Shown here: positions 11,505 to 42,932 of the stretch, piece by piece
Position numbering within the stretch: position 1 is the first letter of the stretch
Layout: each line of letters begins with the position of its first letter
NCBI GenBank assembly: GCA_026625625.1
Contig: CP113055.1
Coordinates: forward strand, 2,110,501-2,174,500
Direction of reading: 5' to 3'
From: Blastomonas sp. SL216
GTDB lineage: Bacteria; Pseudomonadota; Alphaproteobacteria; Sphingomonadales; Sphingomonadaceae
Length of the DNA stretch: 64,000 nt
The notes under the pieces: generated by a model
Database searches by the model: none
The model's input: the letters and a program-made list of their open reading frames with translations, nothing else
Told to the model about the DNA's origin: nothing
Position numbers and translations under genes: made by a program

Positions 11505-12215
11505 ATGAACCATAGCCTCAACGAACACACTCTGAAGGCCTTTGACGGCGACCTGATCACTCTGCGCGGCCTCATCGCGGAGATCGGCGGGCGCGCGGAA
11601 AAGGCGGTGGAAGGCGCGATGGCGGCGCTGGCCAATAACGATCACGATCTCGCGCGCCAGGTGATCGAGGGCGACAAGCGCATCGATGCGCTGGAAGAGC
11701 AGATCGACCGCATGGTGATCCAGACCATCGCGCTGCGCGCGCCGATGGCCGATGATCTGCGCGAACTGGTCGCGGCGCTCAAGATCTCGGGCGTGGTCGA
11801 GCGCATCGGCGATTATGCCAAGAACATCGCCAAGCGCGTGCTGCTGATCGACCCTTCGCAACAGATCGATGCCGCGCGGCTGCTACCCGCCATGGCCGAT
11901 GCGACGCGCCAGCTGGTCGACGATGCCTTTACCGCCTTTGCCAAGCGCGATGCGGACCTGGCAGTCGCGGTGTGCGCGCAGGACAAGACCGTTGACGATT
12001 TCTACAACAGCATCTTCCGCGCGCTGATCGCGCACATGATCGCCAATCCCGAACATGTCGGCGCGGGCACGCACCTGCTGTTCATCGCCAAGAATCTGGA
12101 GCGCATCGGCGACCACGCCACCAATGTCTCCGAAATGGTTTACTTCGCCGTCACGGGTCATTCGATGAACGAGCGCGAGCGCGGCGATGACGCGCTGGCG
12201 CCCGGCAGCGATTGA
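11505..12215 (+). CDS. phoU: Phosphate signalling complex protein PhoU
   Basis: Cytoplasmic regulator of 236 aa that links the Pst transporter to PhoR and keeps the regulon off in phosphate excess. The two PhoU helical repeats are visible, each with an E/DxxxD metal-binding motif: the first around ALEEQIDRMVIQTIALRAPMADDLR, the second around ERIGDHATNVSEMVYF near the C terminus. The segment LVAALKISGVVERIGDYAKNIAKR is characteristic. The start is ATG 11505 with GGAA seven bases upstream; an in-frame TTG lies directly before it. It sits between pstB and phoB in the same direction. Confidence 0.95.
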   Translation: MNHSLNEHTLKAFDGDLITLRGLIAEIGGRAEKAVEGAMAALANNDHDLARQVIEGDKRIDALEEQIDRMVIQTIALRAPMADDLRELVAALKISGVVERIGDYAKNIAKRVLLIDPSQQIDAARLLPAMADATRQLVDDAFTAFAKRDADLAVAVCAQDKTVDDFYNSIFRALIAHMIANPEHVGAGTHLLFIAKNLERIGDHATNVSEMVYFAVTGHSMNERERGDDALAPGSD

Positions 12216-12248
12216 TCCGGACGTTTTTTTGGAACGGAAAGCACGACG

Positions 12249-12944
12249 ATGACCACCCCGCATCTGCTTCTGGTTGAGGACGACATGGCACTGGCCGAGC
12301 TGGTGTCCTGGCATTTCGACAAACAGGGCTTCCGCGTCAGCCAGACCGCCGATGGCGAGGAAGCGATGCTGATCGCGCGCGAGGAACGGCCCGATATCGT
12401 GCTGCTCGACTGGATGATCGAGAACCTGTCGGGCATCGAGGTCTGCCGCCGCCTGCGCCGCGACAACGATACCTCGAACATCCCGATCATCATGATGTCG
12501 GCGCGCGGCGAAGAGGAAGACCGCGTGCGCGGGCTCGACATCGGCGCCGACGATTATGTCACCAAGCCGTTTTCCCCGCGCGAACTGATCGCGCGGGTCA
12601 ACGCGGTGCTGCGCCGCGTGCGCCCGGCGCTGGCAGGCGAGGCGCTGAGCTTTGCCGATATCGAGATGGATACCGTGGGCTACAAGGTGAAGCGCGCCGG
12701 GCAGACCATTCCGCTCGGCCCCACCGAATTCCGCCTGCTGCGCCATTTCCTCGAGCATCCCGGCTGGGTGTTCTCGCGCGAGCGGCTGCTCGACAGTGTC
12801 TGGGGGCATGACAGCGATATCGAGATTCGCACCGTCGATGTGCATATCCGCAGGCTTCGCAAGGCGCTCAACGCCAATGGCCAGCCCGATATCATCCGCA
12901 CCGTGCGCTCTGCCGGATATGCGCTGGACAGCGAACTGGCCTGA
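12249..12944 (+). CDS. phoB: Phosphate regulon response regulator PhoB
   Basis: OmpR/PhoB-class transcription activator, 231 aa. The receiver domain has the acidic pair (VEDDMAL, residues 9-12), phosphorylation site Asp54 in VLLDWMIENLSG and Lys106 in DYVTKPFSPREL. The winged-helix domain occupies about 130-231, with the recognition region IEIRTVDVHIRRLRKALN. The closing GYALDSELA is typical of the family. It lies 33 bp after phoU. The expected targets are Pho boxes like the one before pstS, giving positive autoregulation of the cluster. Confidence 0.95.
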   Translation: MTTPHLLLVEDDMALAELVSWHFDKQGFRVSQTADGEEAMLIAREERPDIVLLDWMIENLSGIEVCRRLRRDNDTSNIPIIMMSARGEEEDRVRGLDIGADDYVTKPFSPRELIARVNAVLRRVRPALAGEALSFADIEMDTVGYKVKRAGQTIPLGPTEFRLLRHFLEHPGWVFSRERLLDSVWGHDSDIEIRTVDVHIRRLRKALNANGQPDIIRTVRSAGYALDSELA

Positions 12945-12964
12945 TCGCCGTAACGTCACCCGTG

Positions 12965-13013
12965 CTTTACGGGCGCGTAAAGGCAGACGGCATCAGCTTG
13001 GCGCTTGCCAAGC
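12965..13013 (+). other. Two short hairpins after phoB
   Basis: CTTTACG/CGTAAAG (12965-12971 with 12976-12982) and GCTTGGC/GCCAAGC (12996-13002 with 13007-13013, loop GCTT) are perfect 7-bp stems in the 139-bp gap between phoB and the SDR gene. Neither is followed by a T run. They may slow or end transcription of the pho operon, but the evidence is weak. Confidence 0.3.
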
Positions 13014-13083
13014 GCTTCAACATGGCTAAAACCCGCGCCATTCCGGGCGCGTTTGCCGCGCCATCAGCGAGAGGATGCTTGCC

Positions 13084-13980
13084 ATGACCATCAGTTTCAA
13101 GGACCGCGTTGCCATCGTGACCGGCGCAGGCGGAGGCCTGGGCCGTGCCTATGCGCTTGACCTTGCCGCCCGCGGCGCGAAGGTCGTCGTCAACGATCTG
13201 GGTGGTGCCCGCGACGGCACCGGCACATCGGACGCCGCCGCTCAGGTGGTCGAAGAGATCAAGGCTGCTGGCGGCGAAGCCATGGCCAATGGCGGATCGG
13301 TCACCGAGTATGAGCAGATGGTCGAAATGGTCGCCAAGGCCAAGGAAGCCTGGGGCGGCGTGCACGTGCTCATCAACAATGCCGGCATCCTGCGCGACAA
13401 GAGCTTCGCCAAGATGGACCCGGCCGATTTCGATCTGGTGGTCAAGGTTCACCTGCTGGGCTCGGCCAACTGCACCAAGGCGGTGTGGGAAACGATGCGC
13501 GAGCAGAATTACGGCCGCATCCTGATGACCGCGTCGTCGACAGGCCTGTACGGCAATTTCGGCCAGGCCAATTATGGCGCGGCCAAGCTGGGCCTCGCCG
13601 GCCTCACCAAGACGCTGTACCTCGAAGGCGCGAAGAACAACATCAAGGTCAACACGCTGGCACCCGTTGCCGGCACGCGCATGACCGAAGACATCTTCCC
13701 GCCTGAAGCCTTCGCGCAGTTCAAGCCCGAGAATGTCGTGCCTGCTGCCATCTATCTGGTTTCGGAAGACGCACCGACCAACATGATCATCGGCGCAGGC
13801 GCAGGCGCGTTCCACGCAGCCTATGTCACGATGACCCAGGGCGCGGCCCTGCCCGAGGGCGAGCGTACCGCCGAAGGCGTGGCGCGCATCTTCGACAAGA
13901 TCACCGACCGCACCGGCGAGACCGTTCCCCAGTCGGGCAGCGAACAGGCGATGACGATCATGCGCCTGCTGCAGGGCTGA
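13084..13980 (+). CDS. SDR family oxidoreductase, multifunctional-enzyme (HSD17B4-like) type
   Basis: Short-chain dehydrogenase of 298 aa. The Rossmann motif is TGAGGGLGRAYAL (about residues 11-23), the second signature NNAGILRDKSF follows, and the catalytic Ser-Tyr-Lys set is in TASSTGLYGNFGQANYGAAK. The long loop VVNDLGGARDGTGTS and the pattern DPADFDLVVKVHLLG resemble the 3-hydroxyacyl-CoA dehydrogenase domain of peroxisomal-type multifunctional enzymes, so a role in beta-oxidation of acyl-CoA or sterol side chains is plausible. The start was put at ATG 13084 because GAGAGG lies 9-10 bases before it; ATG 13075 overlaps that site. Its substrate is not determined. Confidence 0.85.
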   Translation: MTISFKDRVAIVTGAGGGLGRAYALDLAARGAKVVVNDLGGARDGTGTSDAAAQVVEEIKAAGGEAMANGGSVTEYEQMVEMVAKAKEAWGGVHVLINNAGILRDKSFAKMDPADFDLVVKVHLLGSANCTKAVWETMREQNYGRILMTASSTGLYGNFGQANYGAAKLGLAGLTKTLYLEGAKNNIKVNTLAPVAGTRMTEDIFPPEAFAQFKPENVVPAAIYLVSEDAPTNMIIGAGAGAFHAAYVTMTQGAALPEGERTAEGVARIFDKITDRTGETVPQSGSEQAMTIMRLLQG

Positions 13981-14019
13981 TCTTCGGTCCGATCCAAGGG
14001 CTCTGGACGAAAAGGTTAT

Positions 14020-14106
14020 TTCGTCACCCCCGCGCAGGCGGGGGTCCCGCTTCTGATCGGGCTTGAGCTGCGGCAGCGGGATTCCTGCCTTCGCGGGAAT
14101 GACGAA
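14020..14106. repeat. Palindromic intergenic repeat (type C, TTCGTCA...TGACGAA)
   Basis: An 87-bp inverted-repeat unit between two convergent genes. The ends are TTCGTCA (14020-14026) and TGACGAA (14100-14106). Inside are a CCCCCGC/GCGGGGG hairpin with a 4-base loop, TCCCGCT paired with AGCGGGA, and a TTCC...GGGAA hairpin. This structure is like the widespread short extragenic palindromes with a TCATTCCCGC core. It probably also serves as a transcription barrier between the SDR and serB genes. Confidence 0.8.
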
Positions 14107-14152
14107 GAATAGGGGCGCAGCGAGCGATCGCCGCGCCCTTTTTCGTGAGCGC

Positions 14153-15037
14153 CTATTCGCTCCAATCGCCCCGCGCGATGCCCAGCGCGTGGAGCAGCGC
14201 GGTCCAGTCGCCATGCGCGATATGCGCGTCGGCGGCGGCGATCGCGGCGGGCTTGGCGTGATAGGCGACCCCCGTGCCCGCAGCTTTCAGCATCGGGATG
14301 TCGTTGGCGCCATCGCCCAGCGCGATGACCTGGCTCGCTTCCAGGCCCTGCCCCACCGCCTGTTCCATCAGGATCGTCGCCTTGCGCGCGGCATCGACGA
14401 TCCCGCCTTCGAGCGCGCCGGTCATATGGCCGTGCTCGATCACCAGACGGTTGGCGAACACCGCATTGAAGCCCAGCTCCGCGCCGATCACGTCGGCAAA
14501 GGAATGAAACCCGCCCGACACCAGCACGCAATCCACCCCGCGCGAACGCAGCGTGCGCACCAGCGTGCGCGCGCCGGGCATCGGCTGGATGCGATGGCCC
14601 AGGCAATCACCGATGACATGCTCGCTCAGGCCCTTGAGCAGCGCCACGCGCTCGCGCAACGCCGCCTCGAAATCGAGCTCGCCCTGCATCGCGCGTTCGG
14701 TAATCTCGGCGACCTGCGGCTTGACCCCGGCATAATCGGCCAGTTCGTCGATGCACTCGTTGATGATCATCGTGCTGTCCATGTCGGACACCAGCAGCCG
14801 CGCGGCGCGGGCGGCCTCGTCCAGCACCAGCACATCGGCCTGGCGGCGATAGACGGCCAGCGCGGCATCGCCCGCCGCGCGATCTCCGGCAAAGTGCAGC
14901 TCGCCCACCAGCCCCGGCTCGATCCAGCGCACGGACCCTGGAACCAGCCCTGCCTGATGCAATCTGTCGGCGGCGGCGTTTAGCTCTCCCGCTGGCAAGG
15001 TTTCTGCTGCTATCAGCGTGGCGATGGGCACGAACAT
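14153..15037 (-). CDS. serB: Phosphoserine phosphatase SerB
   Basis: Last step of serine synthesis: hydrolysis of O-phosphoserine. The 294-aa protein has a C-terminal HAD domain with motif [10 protein letters not shown] (catalytic Asp85 and Asp87), [12 protein letters not shown] with the family-specific Glu, motif II in [11 protein letters not shown] and motif III/IV in [14 protein letters not shown]. The region before residue 80 resembles the degenerate ACT-like domain of bacterial SerB. The start is ATG 15037. That codon lies inside the 5' end of the divergent miaA gene, so the two genes overlap head to head by 14 bp or more; no later start would keep the domain intact. Confidence 0.94.
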
Positions 15038-15989
15038 TTCCCCTGAGACCACCGGAGACATCCGCCCGGCGCTGGCGCTTATTGCCGGACCTACCGCCAG
15101 CGGCAAGAGCGGATTGGCGGTGCGCTATGCCCAGGGCCTGGCAAGGCGCGGGCAAGAGGCGGTTATCATCAATGCCGACAGCGCGCAGGTCTATGCCGAT
15201 CTTTCGGTCCTTTCCGCCCGTCCGGACGCTGAAGAGATGGGCGAGATCGCGCATCGGCTATTCGGCACGTTCGATGGCGCCCATGCCTGTTCCGCTGCGG
15301 ACTGGGCACAGCAGGCAAAGGCGGAGATTGCCGCAGCGCATGAAGCGGGCGCGCTGCCGATCCTGGTGGGTGGCACAGGCCTGTACCTGCGCACGCTGCT
15401 GGACGGGATTGCGCCGGTCCCGCCGATCGATCCGGATATTCGCGAAACGGTGCGCGCGCTTCCCGTCGCCGAGGCTTATGCGGCACTGCAGAGCGAGGAC
15501 CCGGCGGCAGCAGCGCGGCTCAATGCCGCTGACACCACCCGCGTCGCCCGCGCGCTGGAGGTCGTGCGCTCGACCGGCAAGCCGCTGGGCGAGTGGCAGG
15601 CGCAAAAGCAGGGCGGTATAGGCGAGCACGTGACGCTGCACCCGTTGATCCTGCAGCCTCCGCGCGACTGGCTGCTGGAGCGGTGCGACCGAAGATTCGC
15701 GCAGATGCTGGATCGCGGCGCGGTTGCCGAGGTCGAGGCGCTGCTCACGCGCGGGCTGAACCCCGACCTGCCGGTGATGCGCGCGATCGGCGTGCCCGAA
15801 ATCGCGCGCTGGCTGGGCGGTGCGATCGATCGCGATCAATGCCTGGCCGAAGGGCAGCTGGCGACGCGGCAATATGCCAAGCGGCAATATACCTGGTTCC
15901 GCAACCAGCCGCCGCCGGGCTGGAAACGGTATACGGAAGCATATTCCGATAGCATTGACATAGATTTTGATATTTTATTTCACATTTAG
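15024..15989 (+). CDS. miaA: tRNA dimethylallyltransferase MiaA
   Basis: Transfers a dimethylallyl group to A37 of tRNAs that read UNN codons. The P-loop is [10 protein letters not shown] (residues 21-30), followed by [19 protein letters not shown] with the DSxQ-type catalytic/substrate Asp, [12 protein letters not shown], and the C-terminal [15 protein letters not shown] segment that binds tRNA. It is 321 aa, a normal length. The start is ATG 15024 (GTG 15018 possible), 22 residues before the P-loop. Its first bases overlap serB on the other strand, so each promoter must lie inside the other coding region. Note that position 37 modification also affects translation of Leu, Phe, Ser and Trp codons, of interest given the leader-peptide attenuator of leuA downstream. 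Confidence 0.95.
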
Positions 15990-38582: not shown

Positions 38583-38695
38583 GGGCTGCCATTTAGCCGC
38601 CAATGCTGGCCTGCGCCAGCCGTTTGCGCCTTGAAACGCACCCCGATTGGTGGCTATTCGCATTGCAGGGCTAGGCCGCAGCGCGGATGGGAACG

Positions 38696-39355
38696 ATGAG
38701 CGACAGCGAGAGCATGATCGAGCCTGGCAGCAACCAGTGCGACACAGCCGCGCTGATCAAGGTGCCGGGCGTCCAGAAGGTGCCGACCCCGCGGATGGAG
38801 CTTTTCATCCTGCGCAATTTCCTGTCAGCAGAGGAATGCGCGCGGTTCATCGCCAAGATCGATGCCGACCGACGGCCATCGACCATCGCCGACCCCAATG
38901 GCGACAGCTATTTCCGCACCTCTGAAACCTGCGACATGCGCGCCGACGATCCCGATGTCATCGCGCTCGACCAGCGGCTGAGCGCGCTTTCGGGCATCGA
39001 TCTGCAGTATGGCGAGACGATGCAGGGCCAGCGCTATGCCGTGGGCCAGGAATTCAAGGCGCATACCGACTATTTCGAGCCCGGCGGCGAGGATTTCGCG
39101 CGCTTTACCAGCGTGGCCGGGCAGCGCACCTGGACCTTCATGCTCTATCTGAACGAGCCGGAAGCCGGGGGCGCGACGCGGTTCAAGACGATCGGCAAGT
39201 CGATCCAGCCCGAAGCCGGCAAGCTGCTCGCCTGGAACAACCGCCGCCCCGATGGCAGCGTGAACCCGGCGACCATCCACCATGGCATGAAGGTGCGCGA
39301 AGGCACGAAGTACATCATCACCAAATGGTATCGCGAGAGGCCCTGGGGCTGGTGA
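38696..39355 (+). CDS. 2-oxoglutarate/Fe(II)-dependent oxygenase, prolyl 4-hydroxylase type
   Basis: Double-stranded beta-helix oxygenase, 219 aa. The iron triad is His123 and Asp125 in FKAHTDYFEPGG and His195/196 in TIHHGMKV; a basic residue a few positions later (Lys199 or Arg201) can bind 2-oxoglutarate. MLYLNEPEAGGATRF matches the prolyl 4-hydroxylase alpha-subunit family. The start is ATG 38696, with GGGA upstream; ATG 38687 is also possible. It is the first gene of a tightly overlapping operon with an Nramp-like transporter and 5-oxoprolinase genes. Its target may be a free proline-type amino acid or a peptidyl proline; the context favours a small-molecule or peptide link but does not prove it. 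Confidence 0.86.
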   Translation: MSDSESMIEPGSNQCDTAALIKVPGVQKVPTPRMELFILRNFLSAEECARFIAKIDADRRPSTIADPNGDSYFRTSETCDMRADDPDVIALDQRLSALSGIDLQYGETMQGQRYAVGQEFKAHTDYFEPGGEDFARFTSVAGQRTWTFMLYLNEPEAGGATRFKTIGKSIQPEAGKLLAWNNRRPDGSVNPATIHHGMKVREGTKYIITKWYRERPWGW

Positions 39356-40575
39356 GGCTCACCGCCTATCGCCCTGGGCCCGCGATGCTGGTGACTGCGG
39401 CCTTTATCGGCCCCGGCACCGTCACCGCGTGCGCCAGCGCCGGGATCGGCTTTGGCTATGCGCTGCTTTGGGCGCTGGTCTTTGCAACCATCGCCACCAT
39501 CCTGCTGCAGAACATGGCGGCGCGCGTCGCCATCGTGACCGGGCAGGGGCTGGCCGAGGCGATCCTTGCGGCGGCGGCCAACCCGGCGCTGCGCTGGGCG
39601 ATGGCGGCGCTGATCTTTGCATCGCTGGCCATCGGCAATTCGGCCTATCAGGCGGGCAATGTCAGCGGAACGGCGGCGGGCCTGAAGCTGCTGGGCGTAA
39701 CCGGGGTGTCCCCTGCCCTGCTCGCGCTGGCCATAGGGACGGTGGCGGCCGCGCTGGTGATCATCGGCAAGCCCGCCTGGCTGGAAAAGCTGCTGATCGC
39801 GCTGGTGCTGGCGATGTCGCTCGCGTTTATCGGGGGGCTGGCGGTGATCGAGGTCGACTGGGCGGCCGCCGCGCGCGGCCTTGTCCCCAGCCTGCCCAGC
39901 GACAGCCTGTTCACCGCGATTGCGCTCATCGGCACCACGGTGGTGCCGTATAACCTGTTCCTGCATGCAGCATCGGTGCGCGGCAAGTTCAGCGCCGACA
40001 ACGAAGGGCTGGCGGCATCAAATCTTGATACGGCCATTTCGGTGACGCTGGGCGGACTGCTCTCCATGGCGATCGTCATCATGGGCGCGGCGACGGCGGC
40101 GATGGCGGCGAGCGGCGCGGGGCCGCTCGATGACACCGCGCTGCGGCTGGAGAGCCTGTTCGGGCTGCCCGCACGCATCGTCTTTGCCTCGGGCCTGATC
40201 GGTGCGGGATTCAGCTCGGCACTGACCGCGCCGGTGGCGACCGGCTATGTGCTCGCCGAGATGATGGGCGGCGCGGGCGATCCGGCCAGGCGTGCGCGCA
40301 TCTTCAAGGGTACCGCGCTCGCGGTGGTGATCATCGGCACGCTGTTTGCCGTGTTCGCGGTGAACCCGGTCGAACTCATCCTGATCGCCCAGTCCGCCAA
40401 TGGCCTCTTGCTGCCGATCCTCGCCGCGTTTCTGCTCTGGGTCGCCTCGCGCCGGGCGAGCCTGGGCAGCTTTGCCAATGGCCCGGTCGCCAATGCGGCA
40501 GGTGTCGTCGTGGTGCTGATGTGCGCTGGCCTTGGCATGCGGCTGATCCTGCGGTCGATCGGCATCTGGCCGTGA
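39352..40575 (+). CDS. Nramp-fold transporter lacking the divalent-metal ligands
   Basis: Inner-membrane protein of 407 aa with eleven predicted helices of the Nramp/SLC11 pattern. The helix-1 motif, DPGN in metal transporters, is GPGT here (residues 20-23). The helix-6 motif, ATVMPHN in metal transporters, is TTVVPYN (195-201). Thus the Asp, Asn and Met that coordinate Mn or Fe are all replaced. It is not expected to be a normal manganese transporter. The start is GTG 39352 inside the stop of the oxygenase gene and its own stop overlaps pxpA, so it is coupled to 5-oxoproline metabolism. Related genes (the ycsG type) are found with pxpA homologues in other bacteria. A non-metal substrate such as 5-oxoproline is an inference. 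Confidence 0.85.
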   Translation: MRLTAYRPGPAMLVTAAFIGPGTVTACASAGIGFGYALLWALVFATIATILLQNMAARVAIVTGQGLAEAILAAAANPALRWAMAALIFASLAIGNSAYQAGNVSGTAAGLKLLGVTGVSPALLALAIGTVAAALVIIGKPAWLEKLLIALVLAMSLAFIGGLAVIEVDWAAAARGLVPSLPSDSLFTAIALIGTTVVPYNLFLHAASVRGKFSADNEGLAASNLDTAISVTLGGLLSMAIVIMGAATAAMAASGAGPLDDTALRLESLFGLPARIVFASGLIGAGFSSALTAPVATGYVLAEMMGGAGDPARRARIFKGTALAVVIIGTLFAVFAVNPVELILIAQSANGLLLPILAAFLLWVASRRASLGSFANGPVANAAGVVVVLMCAGLGMRLILRSIGIWP

Positions 40576-41360
40576 CCCGATCGATCGATCTCAATGCCGA
40601 TCTGGGCGAAGAGCCCGACCAGCAGCCGCGCGACATCGCGCTGATGCAGGTCCTATCCAGCTGTAATATCGCCTGTGGCGGCCATGCCGGGGACGAGGCG
40701 AGCATGACGACGATGCTGCGCGCGGCAAGCGCCGCCGGCGTCGCGCCAGGTGCGCATCCCAGCTATCCTGATCGCGCAGGGTTCGGGCGGGTATCGCTTG
40801 CCATGCCGCTGCCCGAGCTGATCAATTCGCTGCTGGATCAGGTGCGCGCGCTGGACGCCGTGGCTGCGCGCGAAGGCATTGCGCTCACCCATATCAAGCC
40901 GCACGGCATGCTGTACAACGACCTCGCCAACCGGCCCGACATGGCGCTGGCGGTGGCGACCGCGCTGTACCAGGCCTTTCCGCATCTCGCACAGGTAGGG
41001 CTGGCGCATTCGGCCAGCGCGCACGCCGCACAGGCGGCCGGCGCCCGCTTCATCGCCGAGGGCTTTGTCGACCGGGGCTATACGCCTGCGCGGCGGCTGA
41101 TCCCGCGCAGCCAGCCTGGCGCGCTGATCGCCAGCGACGCCGATCGCGCCGCACAAGCCGTCGCGATCGCCACCGGCCAGCCGCTAACCGCCAGTGACGG
41201 CAGCCTGATCGCGGTTGAGGCGCAAAGCCTGTGCATCCATTCCGACAGTCCGGGCGCGGAACAAACCGCTTTGCGGATAGCAGACGAGATGGCACTCTTG
41301 GGGATAACGATAAAGGCCCCTGGAGAGCTGCCCGATGACCCAGCCGATCTATTGCGCTGA
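40572..41360 (+). CDS. pxpA: 5-oxoprolinase subunit A (LamB/YcsF family)
   Basis: Subunit of the ATP-dependent 5-oxoprolinase PxpABC, which opens 5-oxo-L-proline to glutamate. The 262-aa protein starts SIDLNADLGE and has SCNIACGGHAGDEASM, APGAHPSYPDRAGFGR and HIKPHGMLYNDL, the four signature regions of the LamB/YcsF family. The start is GTG 40572, overlapping the transporter stop; the frame upstream is not used. pxpB overlaps its 3' end by 26 bp. Confidence 0.93.
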   Translation: MTRSIDLNADLGEEPDQQPRDIALMQVLSSCNIACGGHAGDEASMTTMLRAASAAGVAPGAHPSYPDRAGFGRVSLAMPLPELINSLLDQVRALDAVAAREGIALTHIKPHGMLYNDLANRPDMALAVATALYQAFPHLAQVGLAHSASAHAAQAAGARFIAEGFVDRGYTPARRLIPRSQPGALIASDADRAAQAVAIATGQPLTASDGSLIAVEAQSLCIHSDSPGAEQTALRIADEMALLGITIKAPGELPDDPADLLR

Positions 41361-41994
41361 CGACTGGTTGATGATTCGAGGTCTGCCGCCCGAACGCGTA
41401 GCGGCCTTGGCCACGGCAGCAGAAGCGCAAGGCTGGGACGATATCGTGCCTGGGCTGGACAGCCTGTCGCTGGGCTGGAACCCGGCCGAGCGCGGAATCG
41501 AGGCAGCACAGGCGCTCGCCCGGGCCCTGACCGACGGCGATGCCACAGCGCCCGACATCGCATCCGCGCCGTTGGCGACGCTGCACATCTGCTACGAAGC
41601 GCCCTGGGCGCATGATGCGGACATTGTCGCCGAACTGCTCGGCATGGCCACCGATGCGCTGCCGCAATGGCATGCCGCGCAGGACTGGAGCGTTGCCATG
41701 CTGGGTTTCCAGCCGGGCTTTGCGTACCTGACCTGCGACGCGCGCATCCCTGACATCCCCCGCCTTTCCGATCCGCGTGCGCGGGTCGAGGGTGGGTCGG
41801 TCGGGTTGCTCGGCCAGATTTGCGGGCTCTATCCGCATGCCGGGCCCGGTGGCTGGCCGATCATCGGCCGCATTGCCGAAACCCTGTTCGATCCGCATGC
41901 CGCATCCCCCGCCTTGCTTCAGGCCGGGCAGAAGGTGCGCTTCGCGCGGATCAGCGCCGACGATCTCGCGGCACGGACGGGAGGCAGCGCATGA
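41335..41994 (+). CDS. pxpB: 5-oxoprolinase subunit B (KipI/allophanate hydrolase subunit 1 type)
   Basis: Carboxyltransferase-domain (C/D) protein of 219 aa. The diagnostic segment is VAMLGFQPGFAYLTCDARI, followed by PRLSDPRARVEGGSVGLLGQICGLYPHAGPGGWPIIGR (strand-turn repeats typical of KipI). The start ATG 41335 lies within pxpA. With PxpC it forms the part that couples ATP to ring activation. KipI homologues inhibit sporulation kinase in Bacillus, but here the three-gene set argues for oxoprolinase. Confidence 0.9.
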   Translation: MTQPIYCADDWLMIRGLPPERVAALATAAEAQGWDDIVPGLDSLSLGWNPAERGIEAAQALARALTDGDATAPDIASAPLATLHICYEAPWAHDADIVAELLGMATDALPQWHAAQDWSVAMLGFQPGFAYLTCDARIPDIPRLSDPRARVEGGSVGLLGQICGLYPHAGPGGWPIIGRIAETLFDPHAASPALLQAGQKVRFARISADDLAARTGGSA

Positions 41995-42932
41995 GCCTTA
42001 CCGTCCTCAAGGCCGGGCTGCAGTCGAGCATCCAGGCCGGCCCCTTCCGATCCTTGCGCAAGCTGGCGGTGCCGTCGGGCGGCGCGGCCGATACGCTGAG
42101 CCTGGCGCTCGCCAACCGGCTGGTCGGCCAGCCGCTCGATGCAGCCGGAATTGAAATCACGCTGGGTCCGGCGGAGTTCCGCGCGGAGCGGGCGCTGAGC
42201 GTCGCAGTCACCGGGGCACCGTGCCAGATCCAGATCAACGGCGATGAGGCCGAACCGCACCACACGCTGCACCTGAAGGCGGGCGACACGCTCAGCATCG
42301 GGCGCGTCTGGGCGGGATGCCGCGTGTACCTTGCGCTGTCGGCGCAGATCGATGTCCCCGAATTGCTGGGCACACGCTCGACGCTGATCGGGGCGGGCTT
42401 TGGCGGGCTGGACGGTCGCGCGCTGGCCGATGGCGATGTCATCGCGCTCGGCAGCGGCGGTGCGGATTCTCCATCGCTCGTCACCCCTCCCGAGTTGCAG
42501 CCGTTTTTCGGCCATGGCTTCGTGCTGCGCATCGTTGCCGGGCCGGAAAGCGAGCGGCTGGCGCTGGGGATGGCGGCCTTGGCGCGCAAACGCTGGCGCG
42601 TTTCCTCCAGATCGAGCCGCATGGGCCTGAAATTGCAGGGGACCGCGATCGACCTCAACTCTGCCGCACCGATCCGCAGCGGCGCGGTCTTCCCCGGAAT
42701 CATCCAGTGCCCGCCCGACGGGATGCCCTATCTGATCGGCTGCGAAGGCCAGACCACCGGCGGCTATCCGCGCATCGGCCAGGTCGTTCGCGCCGACCGG
42801 CACCTGATCGGCCAGCTCGCGCCCAATGCGACGATGCTGCTGGTGCCGGTCCAGCCCGAACAGGCCGAACAGATCCACGCCGAAAAGCTGGCGCTCTGGA
42901 CGGACTGGCTGCCCGGTCTGGCGCTCGCCTGA
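41991..42932 (+). CDS. pxpC: 5-oxoprolinase subunit C (KipA/allophanate hydrolase subunit 2 type)
   Basis: Biotin-dependent carboxyltransferase-like protein of 313 aa. Typical segments are LQSSIQAGPFRSL near the N terminus, VPSGGAADTLSLALANRLVG, EITLGPAEFRAE, and SSRSSRMGLKLQG and GIIQCPPDGMPYLIGCEGQTTGGYPRIGQVV late in the chain. The start is ATG 41991, overlapping pxpB by 4 bp. It is the last gene of the operon; a hairpin whose arms contain its stop and that of the convergent GST gene follows. Confidence 0.9.
   Translation: MSLTVLKAGLQSSIQAGPFRSLRKLAVPSGGAADTLSLALANRLVGQPLDAAGIEITLGPAEFRAERALSVAVTGAPCQIQINGDEAEPHHTLHLKAGDTLSIGRVWAGCRVYLALSAQIDVPELLGTRSTLIGAGFGGLDGRALADGDVIALGSGGADSPSLVTPPELQPFFGHGFVLRIVAGPESERLALGMAALARKRWRVSSRSSRMGLKLQGTAIDLNSAAPIRSGAVFPGIIQCPPDGMPYLIGCEGQTTGGYPRIGQVVRADRHLIGQLAPNATMLLVPVQPEQAEQIHAEKLALWTDWLPGLALA

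Follow-up and report, generated by a model that had tools for sequence, protein, structure and literature searches.

The branch of Nramp-related proteins that holds YcsG, MumT and PxpT has divided the literature, being described as one of manganese (Mn) importers in two papers and as one of 5-oxoproline importers in two others. C. glutamicum PxpT (cg1142), which is 50% identical to YcsG, is needed for growth on 5-oxoproline, a requirement complemented from a plasmid (PMC13274462), and deletion of ycsG in B. subtilis, as summarized in that paper, blocks the use of 5-oxoproline as a nitrogen source (Niehaus 2017, cited in PMC13274462). On the other side of the dispute, overexpression of YcsG, renamed MntG, raises cell Mn, a triple mntH mntA ycsG mutant was unobtainable, and a polar effect was raised as a possibility for the earlier ycsG deletion (PMC10448178), while A. 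baumannii deleted for mumT contains less Mn and is resistant to it (PMC5050338). In a 2026 preprint (Ray, Berry and Gaudet; PMC12873925), MntG is assigned to a 'G-motif 3' group without the metal motif, and Nramp-related groups other than this one and the Nramp-related magnesium transporters (NRMTs) are called entirely uncharacterised. The gene analysed here lies in a 64,000-nucleotide stretch (the window) of Blastomonas sp. SL216 (contig CP113055.1, positions 2,110,501 to 2,174,500), whose genome is a single contig of 3.86 Mb. Its product has Gly-Pro-Gly-Thr (GPGT) in transmembrane helix 1 (TM1) and is encoded immediately before the 5-oxoprolinase genes pxpABC. Judging from residues and gene neighbourhood, we consider it probable that this is an Nramp-fold (LeuT-type) secondary transporter that brings in 5-oxoproline, or lactam acids close to it, for the downstream PxpABC, and not a divalent-metal transporter. 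The reading draws on the replacement of 7/7 metal and proton positions, on the operon shared with pxpA, on the ties of its clade to two oxoprolinase-type enzymes, and on the requirement for the distant analogue PxpT in growth on 5-oxoproline (PMC13274462).

That the protein belongs to the Nramp superfamily is indicated by its PF01566 match (252.5 bits against a cut-off of 29.8, residues 25-377), and its best sequence match in the PDB is BfraNramp (10ky, E 2.7e-35). When it is aligned with 29 canonical sequences (DraNramp and BfraNramp included), EleNRMT and members of other groups, every one of the seven canonical substrate and proton positions is found to be changed: D56 to G20, N59 to T23, D131 to Q100, E134 to N103, A227 to T195, M230 to V198 and H232 to Y200. 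Five of these (D56, N59, E134, M230 and H232) are invariant in 29/29 canonical sequences aligned. Where metal ligands are expected the window protein thus has GPGT for the TM1 DPGN and TTVVPY for the TM6 AxxMPH, and the proton residues D131, E134 and H232 are replaced by Gln, Asn and Tyr. The initial annotation of this stretch, made from its letters alone, had pointed to GPGT in place of DPGN and TTVVPYN in place of ATVMPHN, both of which the alignment bears out, but had missed that the acidic residues of TM3 are also gone. At the D131 position Glu is found in most other members of the clade but Gln in the Blastomonas group, which is left with no acid at any canonical position.

Could such a protein still import a divalent metal (Mn or Mg) through an atypical site, supplying it for 5-oxoprolinase or for nitrogen metabolism? 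NRMTs demonstrate that an Nramp fold whose site has changed can transport Mg (PMC8806188), the window protein is the sole PF01566 match in its genome by profile search, no ZIP transporter was found in that genome, and the Mn phenotypes of YcsG and MumT would fit. However, NRMTs have retained Asp in TM1 and an acidic residue in TM3 where the window protein has Gly and Gln/Asn, and in BfraNramp either D38A (TM1) or E116A (TM3) alone nearly abolishes Mn and Cd transport (PMC12873925). Moreover, the two reports on Mn deal with proteins of the other branch and describe whole-cell effects, CorA and MgtE could serve Mg transport in this genome, and none of the acidic-motif genes sampled (0/53, see below) adjoins 5-oxoprolinase genes. 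We regard a metal importer as very unlikely.

The databases nevertheless would name it as one. The MntH model NF001923 (145.6 against 430 bits) and TIGR01197 (82.4 against 272.5) both miss their cut-offs, but the equivalog NF037982, 'Nramp family divalent metal transporter', is passed at 68.9 against 50 bits, the sole NCBIfam metal model to be so, and since this happens despite the absence of any ligand the window protein would be called a divalent metal transporter, the very name that its relatives bear on plasmid records. NF037982 is a likely source of misannotation, and the usual annotation of the window protein, as the initial annotation had suspected, is probably wrong. A simple motif rule could stop the transfer of 'divalent metal transporter' to genes with an acid-free TM1. 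The initial annotation had proposed 5-oxoproline or a related organic acid as the substrate instead; residues and gene neighbourhood favour this over a metal, and the direction was right, but the idea had already been published for the PxpT/YcsG branch (PMC13274462), as had the missing motif of YcsG's group (PMC12873925).

The locus itself is a tight cluster of five plus-strand genes encoding an oxygenase, the Nramp protein, PxpA, PxpB and PxpC (Table 1). All three PxpABC subunits are encoded, as recognized by Pfam and NCBIfam, PxpB and PxpC falling under the stricter NCBIfam cut-offs. The 4-bp overlaps reported by the initial annotation on both sides of the Nramp gene hold, with the sequence GTGA at each: the Nramp GTG start at 39352 precedes the oxygenase end at 39355, and the pxpA GTG start at 40572 precedes the Nramp stop at 40575. 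An alternative, longer Nramp frame from an ATG at 39325 would overlap the oxygenase further. The closest named relatives of the Nramp gene are in Blastomonas and Sphingomonas ursincola (81-86% identity), and the gene order and 4-bp Nramp/pxpA overlap are kept both in these and in other genera (41-49%), which argues that neither is due to chance. The solved structures nearest to the oxygenase are prolyl 4-hydroxylases; an oxygenase of this kind opens the operon at every locus of the Blastomonas group, and one other genus has it immediately upstream (L047, 6601-7323).

Table 1. Features of the Blastomonas sp. SL216 locus, in window coordinates.
Feature	Coordinates	Strand	Evidence
2-oxoglutarate (2OG)-Fe(II) oxygenase, prolyl-4-hydroxylase-like; gene 1 of probable operon	38687-39355	+	Pfam PF13640, 62.6 bits
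Nramp-fold transporter, GPGT clade, 407 residues, GTG start; putative 5-oxoproline importer	39352-40575	+	Pfam PF01566
TM1 motif GPGT, residues 20-23 (canonical DPGN)	39409-39420	+	Alignment; 31/31 in GPGT clade
TM3 Q100..N103 (canonical D131/E134)	39649-39660	+	Alignment
TM6 motif TTVVPYN, residues 195-201 (canonical ATVMPHN)	39934-39954	+	Alignment
pxpA, 5-oxoprolinase subunit A (LamB/YcsF family), GTG start	40572-41360	+	PF03746, 253 bits; NF003814, 239 bits (cut-off 226, passed)
pxpB, 5-oxoprolinase subunit B (CT_C_D)	41335-41994	+	PF02682, 136 bits; TIGR00370, 104.6 bits (under cut-off 145.6)
pxpC, 5-oxoprolinase subunit C (CT_A_B)	41991-42932	+	PF02626, 247 bits; NF045499, 202 bits (under cut-off 500)

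To place the protein we assembled 115 Nramp-family loci with their flanks, most of them from an even draw of 397 genomes within the same phylum, together with plasmid records; a scan of viral contigs for more relatives of the window protein found none. Sorting by TM1 and TM6 motifs gives discrete groups: canonical (DPGN...MPH), DPSG...TTISPY, NRMT-like (DAGx), GPGT...GTTxVPYN, into which the window protein falls, GPGF/GPAF...GGTVGGY, and a few others. In a maximum-likelihood tree of 79 sequences the GPGT clade and the canonical clade form separate one-sided groups with support of 100/99 and 100/100, respectively. The branch dividing all Gly-type from all Asp/Glu-type TM1 motifs is supported at 99/97, and it also separates the window protein from the NRMTs, whose site (DxxG - TxxA/T) includes a TM1 Asp where the window protein has Gly20. 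A single change at this position suffices on the tree, which has no outgroup and gives no direction. The ligands that the initial annotation spoke of as 'removed' do differ, but loss is not implied, the tree leaving the order of this one Gly/Asp-Glu change unspecified.

The initial annotation had further compared the protein to the ycsG type, and here it was mistaken. The GPGF group is the YcsG type, an assignment made from gene neighbourhood: in Lactobacillaceae plasmids GPGF genes have as neighbours pxpA and a YcsI-family (D-glutamate cyclase) gene, with pxpBC. MumT was placed with this branch because most of the mum operon is said to be present in Proteus mirabilis (PMC5050338) and a GPGF gene adjoins pxpA in a record of that species (L123). 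The window protein, by its alignment and its place on the tree, is not of the YcsG type, since it falls in another clade, with strong support, has a different motif and is only 15-20% identical to the GPGF proteins. A tree with GPGT and GPGF together on one side of a branch is not rejected by an approximately unbiased (AU) test (p 0.24), and independent recruitment of the two is not supported. Two candidates for mumT itself were set aside: a GPGS-type Nramp gene (L062/L063), whose neighbours are GST, GGDEF, OmpW and SSF genes, and the GPGF gene of three genomes as the Acinetobacter mumT, for which plasmid matches gave no support. One GPGF sub-branch with GGAVGGY (L144-L147) has no pxp neighbour within 5 kb and may have another substrate.

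Motif and neighbourhood go together. Counting as a neighbour any pxp or hydantoinase/oxoprolinase gene within about 5 kb, such a gene is found at 0/27 canonical, 0/23 DPSG and 0/3 DAGx loci, as against 19/31 GPGT and 20/24 GPGF/GPAF loci. With only the genes of the genome sample that were seeded by Nramp similarity, the counts are 10/20 for GPGT, 13/17 for GPGF/GPAF and 0/53 for acidic-motif genes, the last set having been hand-picked from lists with the neighbours unseen (Fisher p against the acidic-motif genes 4e-12 for both Gly groups and 3e-7 for GPGT alone, relatedness ignored). The link to lactam hydrolysis is thus confined to Nramp relatives that have no acid in TM1; the sampled metal-motif genes never show it. 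This contrast makes the dispute between Mn and 5-oxoproline directly testable. At the level of whole genomes, pxpA or a fused OPLAH-type gene is present somewhere in 20/20 GPGT genomes, a co-occurrence that is only mildly informative because the oxoprolinase baseline is 64% of 357 genomes (17/17 in the overlapping sample, p = 0.0004, relatedness ignored) and 8/20 of the genomes are from one family. The gammaproteobacterial GPGT genes (L052-L059 and L009) lie apart from pxp, and 8/8 of the whole genomes sampled among them (L052-L059) have pxpA elsewhere.

Within the GPGT clade the partner enzyme is not constant. In 6 sampled genomes of 4 genera, that of the window included, it is PxpABC, whereas in 4 genomes of 3 genera it is a single protein of 1194-1216 residues with Hydant_A_N, Hydantoinase_A and Hydantoinase_B domains, an architecture which we take to be that of OPLAH-type 5-oxoprolinase. 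A 4-bp stop/start overlap (ATGA or GTGA) with the downstream enzyme occurs with both kinds, and the partner state has changed at least 4 times within the clade on the tree. GPGT loci would then share a substrate and not an enzyme; a common substrate most simply explains why one transporter clade travels with two unrelated, non-homologous enzymes. What that substrate is might be questioned, since hydantoin, another lactam or a prolyl compound tied to the adjacent oxygenase could be the main one and 5-oxoproline secondary. Every Blastomonas-group locus has the oxygenase, and the best solved match of the fused enzyme, whose 5-oxoprolinase role is putative, is a 1288-residue chain named N-methylhydantoinase. 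Most GPGT loci, however, have no oxygenase, and the window locus has a complete PxpABC, the known substrate of which is 5-oxoproline. Another organic substrate of this sort seems to us unlikely.

Elsewhere in the family, some 3 kb downstream of an Nramp relative whose TM1 motif is EVGS (L079, 7407-8624), HyuA- and HyuB-like genes (11748-15773) lie on its strand.

How might the Nramp fold accommodate such a molecule? 5-Oxoproline consists of a carboxylate and a lactam ring, and PxpABC opens it to glutamate. In AdiC and GkApcT, which are LeuT-fold amino-acid transporters, the substrate carboxylate is held in the unwound part of TM1, by the Ser26 side chain and Gly27 amide in the former and by the amides of Thr43 and Gly44 in the latter (PMC5803215). 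Gly20-Pro-Gly-Thr23 looks like such an APC-type carboxylate-holding stretch and unlike a metal site, and because the same stretch of TM1 holds carboxylates in AdiC and GkApcT, it could by analogy hold that of 5-oxoproline, through the backbone amides and Thr23 of an unwound GPGT. T195, T196, Y200 and N201 of TM6 and Q100 and N103 of TM3 would line the remaining pocket and face the lactam ring. Import would be driven by H+ or Na+, and the imported 5-oxoproline would be passed to PxpABC and converted to glutamate. Direction cannot be read from genome analysis, and as 5-oxoproline arises spontaneously from glutamate and glutamine (PMC13274462), the protein might instead export or exchange internally formed 5-oxoproline, in detoxification or osmolyte traffic. 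Yet the downstream enzyme already removes internal 5-oxoproline, so that export is not needed, and pxpT deletion blocks the use of the external compound (PMC13274462); we consider export extremely unlikely.

Several observations weigh against 5-oxoproline import. The genetic precedent, PxpT/YcsG, is only about 18% identical to the window protein, and for two proteins of the other branch, YcsG and MumT, an increase of Mn in the cell has been reported (PMC10448178, PMC5050338). Half of the seeded GPGT genes (10/20) have no pxp or hydantoinase/oxoprolinase neighbour within about 5 kb. An AlphaFold2 model made from 7 close sequences was poor (predicted local distance difference test score, pLDDT, 36; predicted template modelling score, pTM, 0.24) and gave no usable pocket. 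Finally, the GPGT genes of haloarchaeal plasmids (L010, 4971-9826; L011, 4971-10596) are directly followed by split HyuA/HyuB genes closest to caprolactamase, so that the substrate may be another lactam; L011 also carries an Asp/Glu racemase-family gene, which suggests hydantoin or another lactam.

It is tempting to go further and speculate that GPGT is a second Nramp-fold lineage dedicated to 5-oxoproline or lactam acids, paired with either of two unrelated oxoprolinases, that the metal-binding Asp derived from an older state in which a Gly-x-Gly TM1 bound organic acids, and that Mn import by YcsG/MntG and MumT is indirect, though we hold this combination to be somewhat doubtful. The findings bear in any case on the origin of metal binding among Nramp proteins, and GPGT offers a second branch in which 5-oxoproline import can be tested; in the literature searched we found no experiment on GPGT. 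The open literature searched likewise held no paper on the function of the GPGT clade or its pairing with two enzyme types, nor one linking Nramp with hydantoinase and oxoprolinase clusters.

What is new here is the separate GPGT clade, the contrast of motif by neighbourhood and the swap of enzymes. The locus resembles several known systems in part. With PxpT/YcsG it shares an Nramp-family protein in a 5-oxoprolinase operon and the missing metal motif of YcsG's group (PMC13274462, PMC12873925), but its motif is not the GPGF...GGTVGGY of the YcsG-type genes sampled beside pxpA, and the D-glutamate cyclase (YcsI) family gene usual beside pxpA in GPGF operons, like the biotin carboxylase genes often found there (L125, L149-L152 and many others), is absent from the window locus and from the sampled GPGT operons. 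The G-motif groups, like the window protein, have neither DPGN nor MPH and no proton pathway. The available part of PMC12873925 names only G-motif 3 among them, makes no link to 5-oxoprolinase and does not mention 5-oxoproline. With canonical SLC11/MntH transporters such as DraNramp and BfraNramp only the fold family is common, all seven ligand and proton positions being different. EleNRMT comes nearer in having Thr at the A227 position, no Met and no canonical proton pathway, but NRMTs retain the TM1 Asp and TM3 Glu where the window protein has Gly and Asn. The DctP6/DctP7 tripartite ATP-independent periplasmic (TRAP) system of Bordetella, as cited in PMC13274462, likely has the same substrate and lies near an oxoprolinase gene, but is a transporter of unrelated type.

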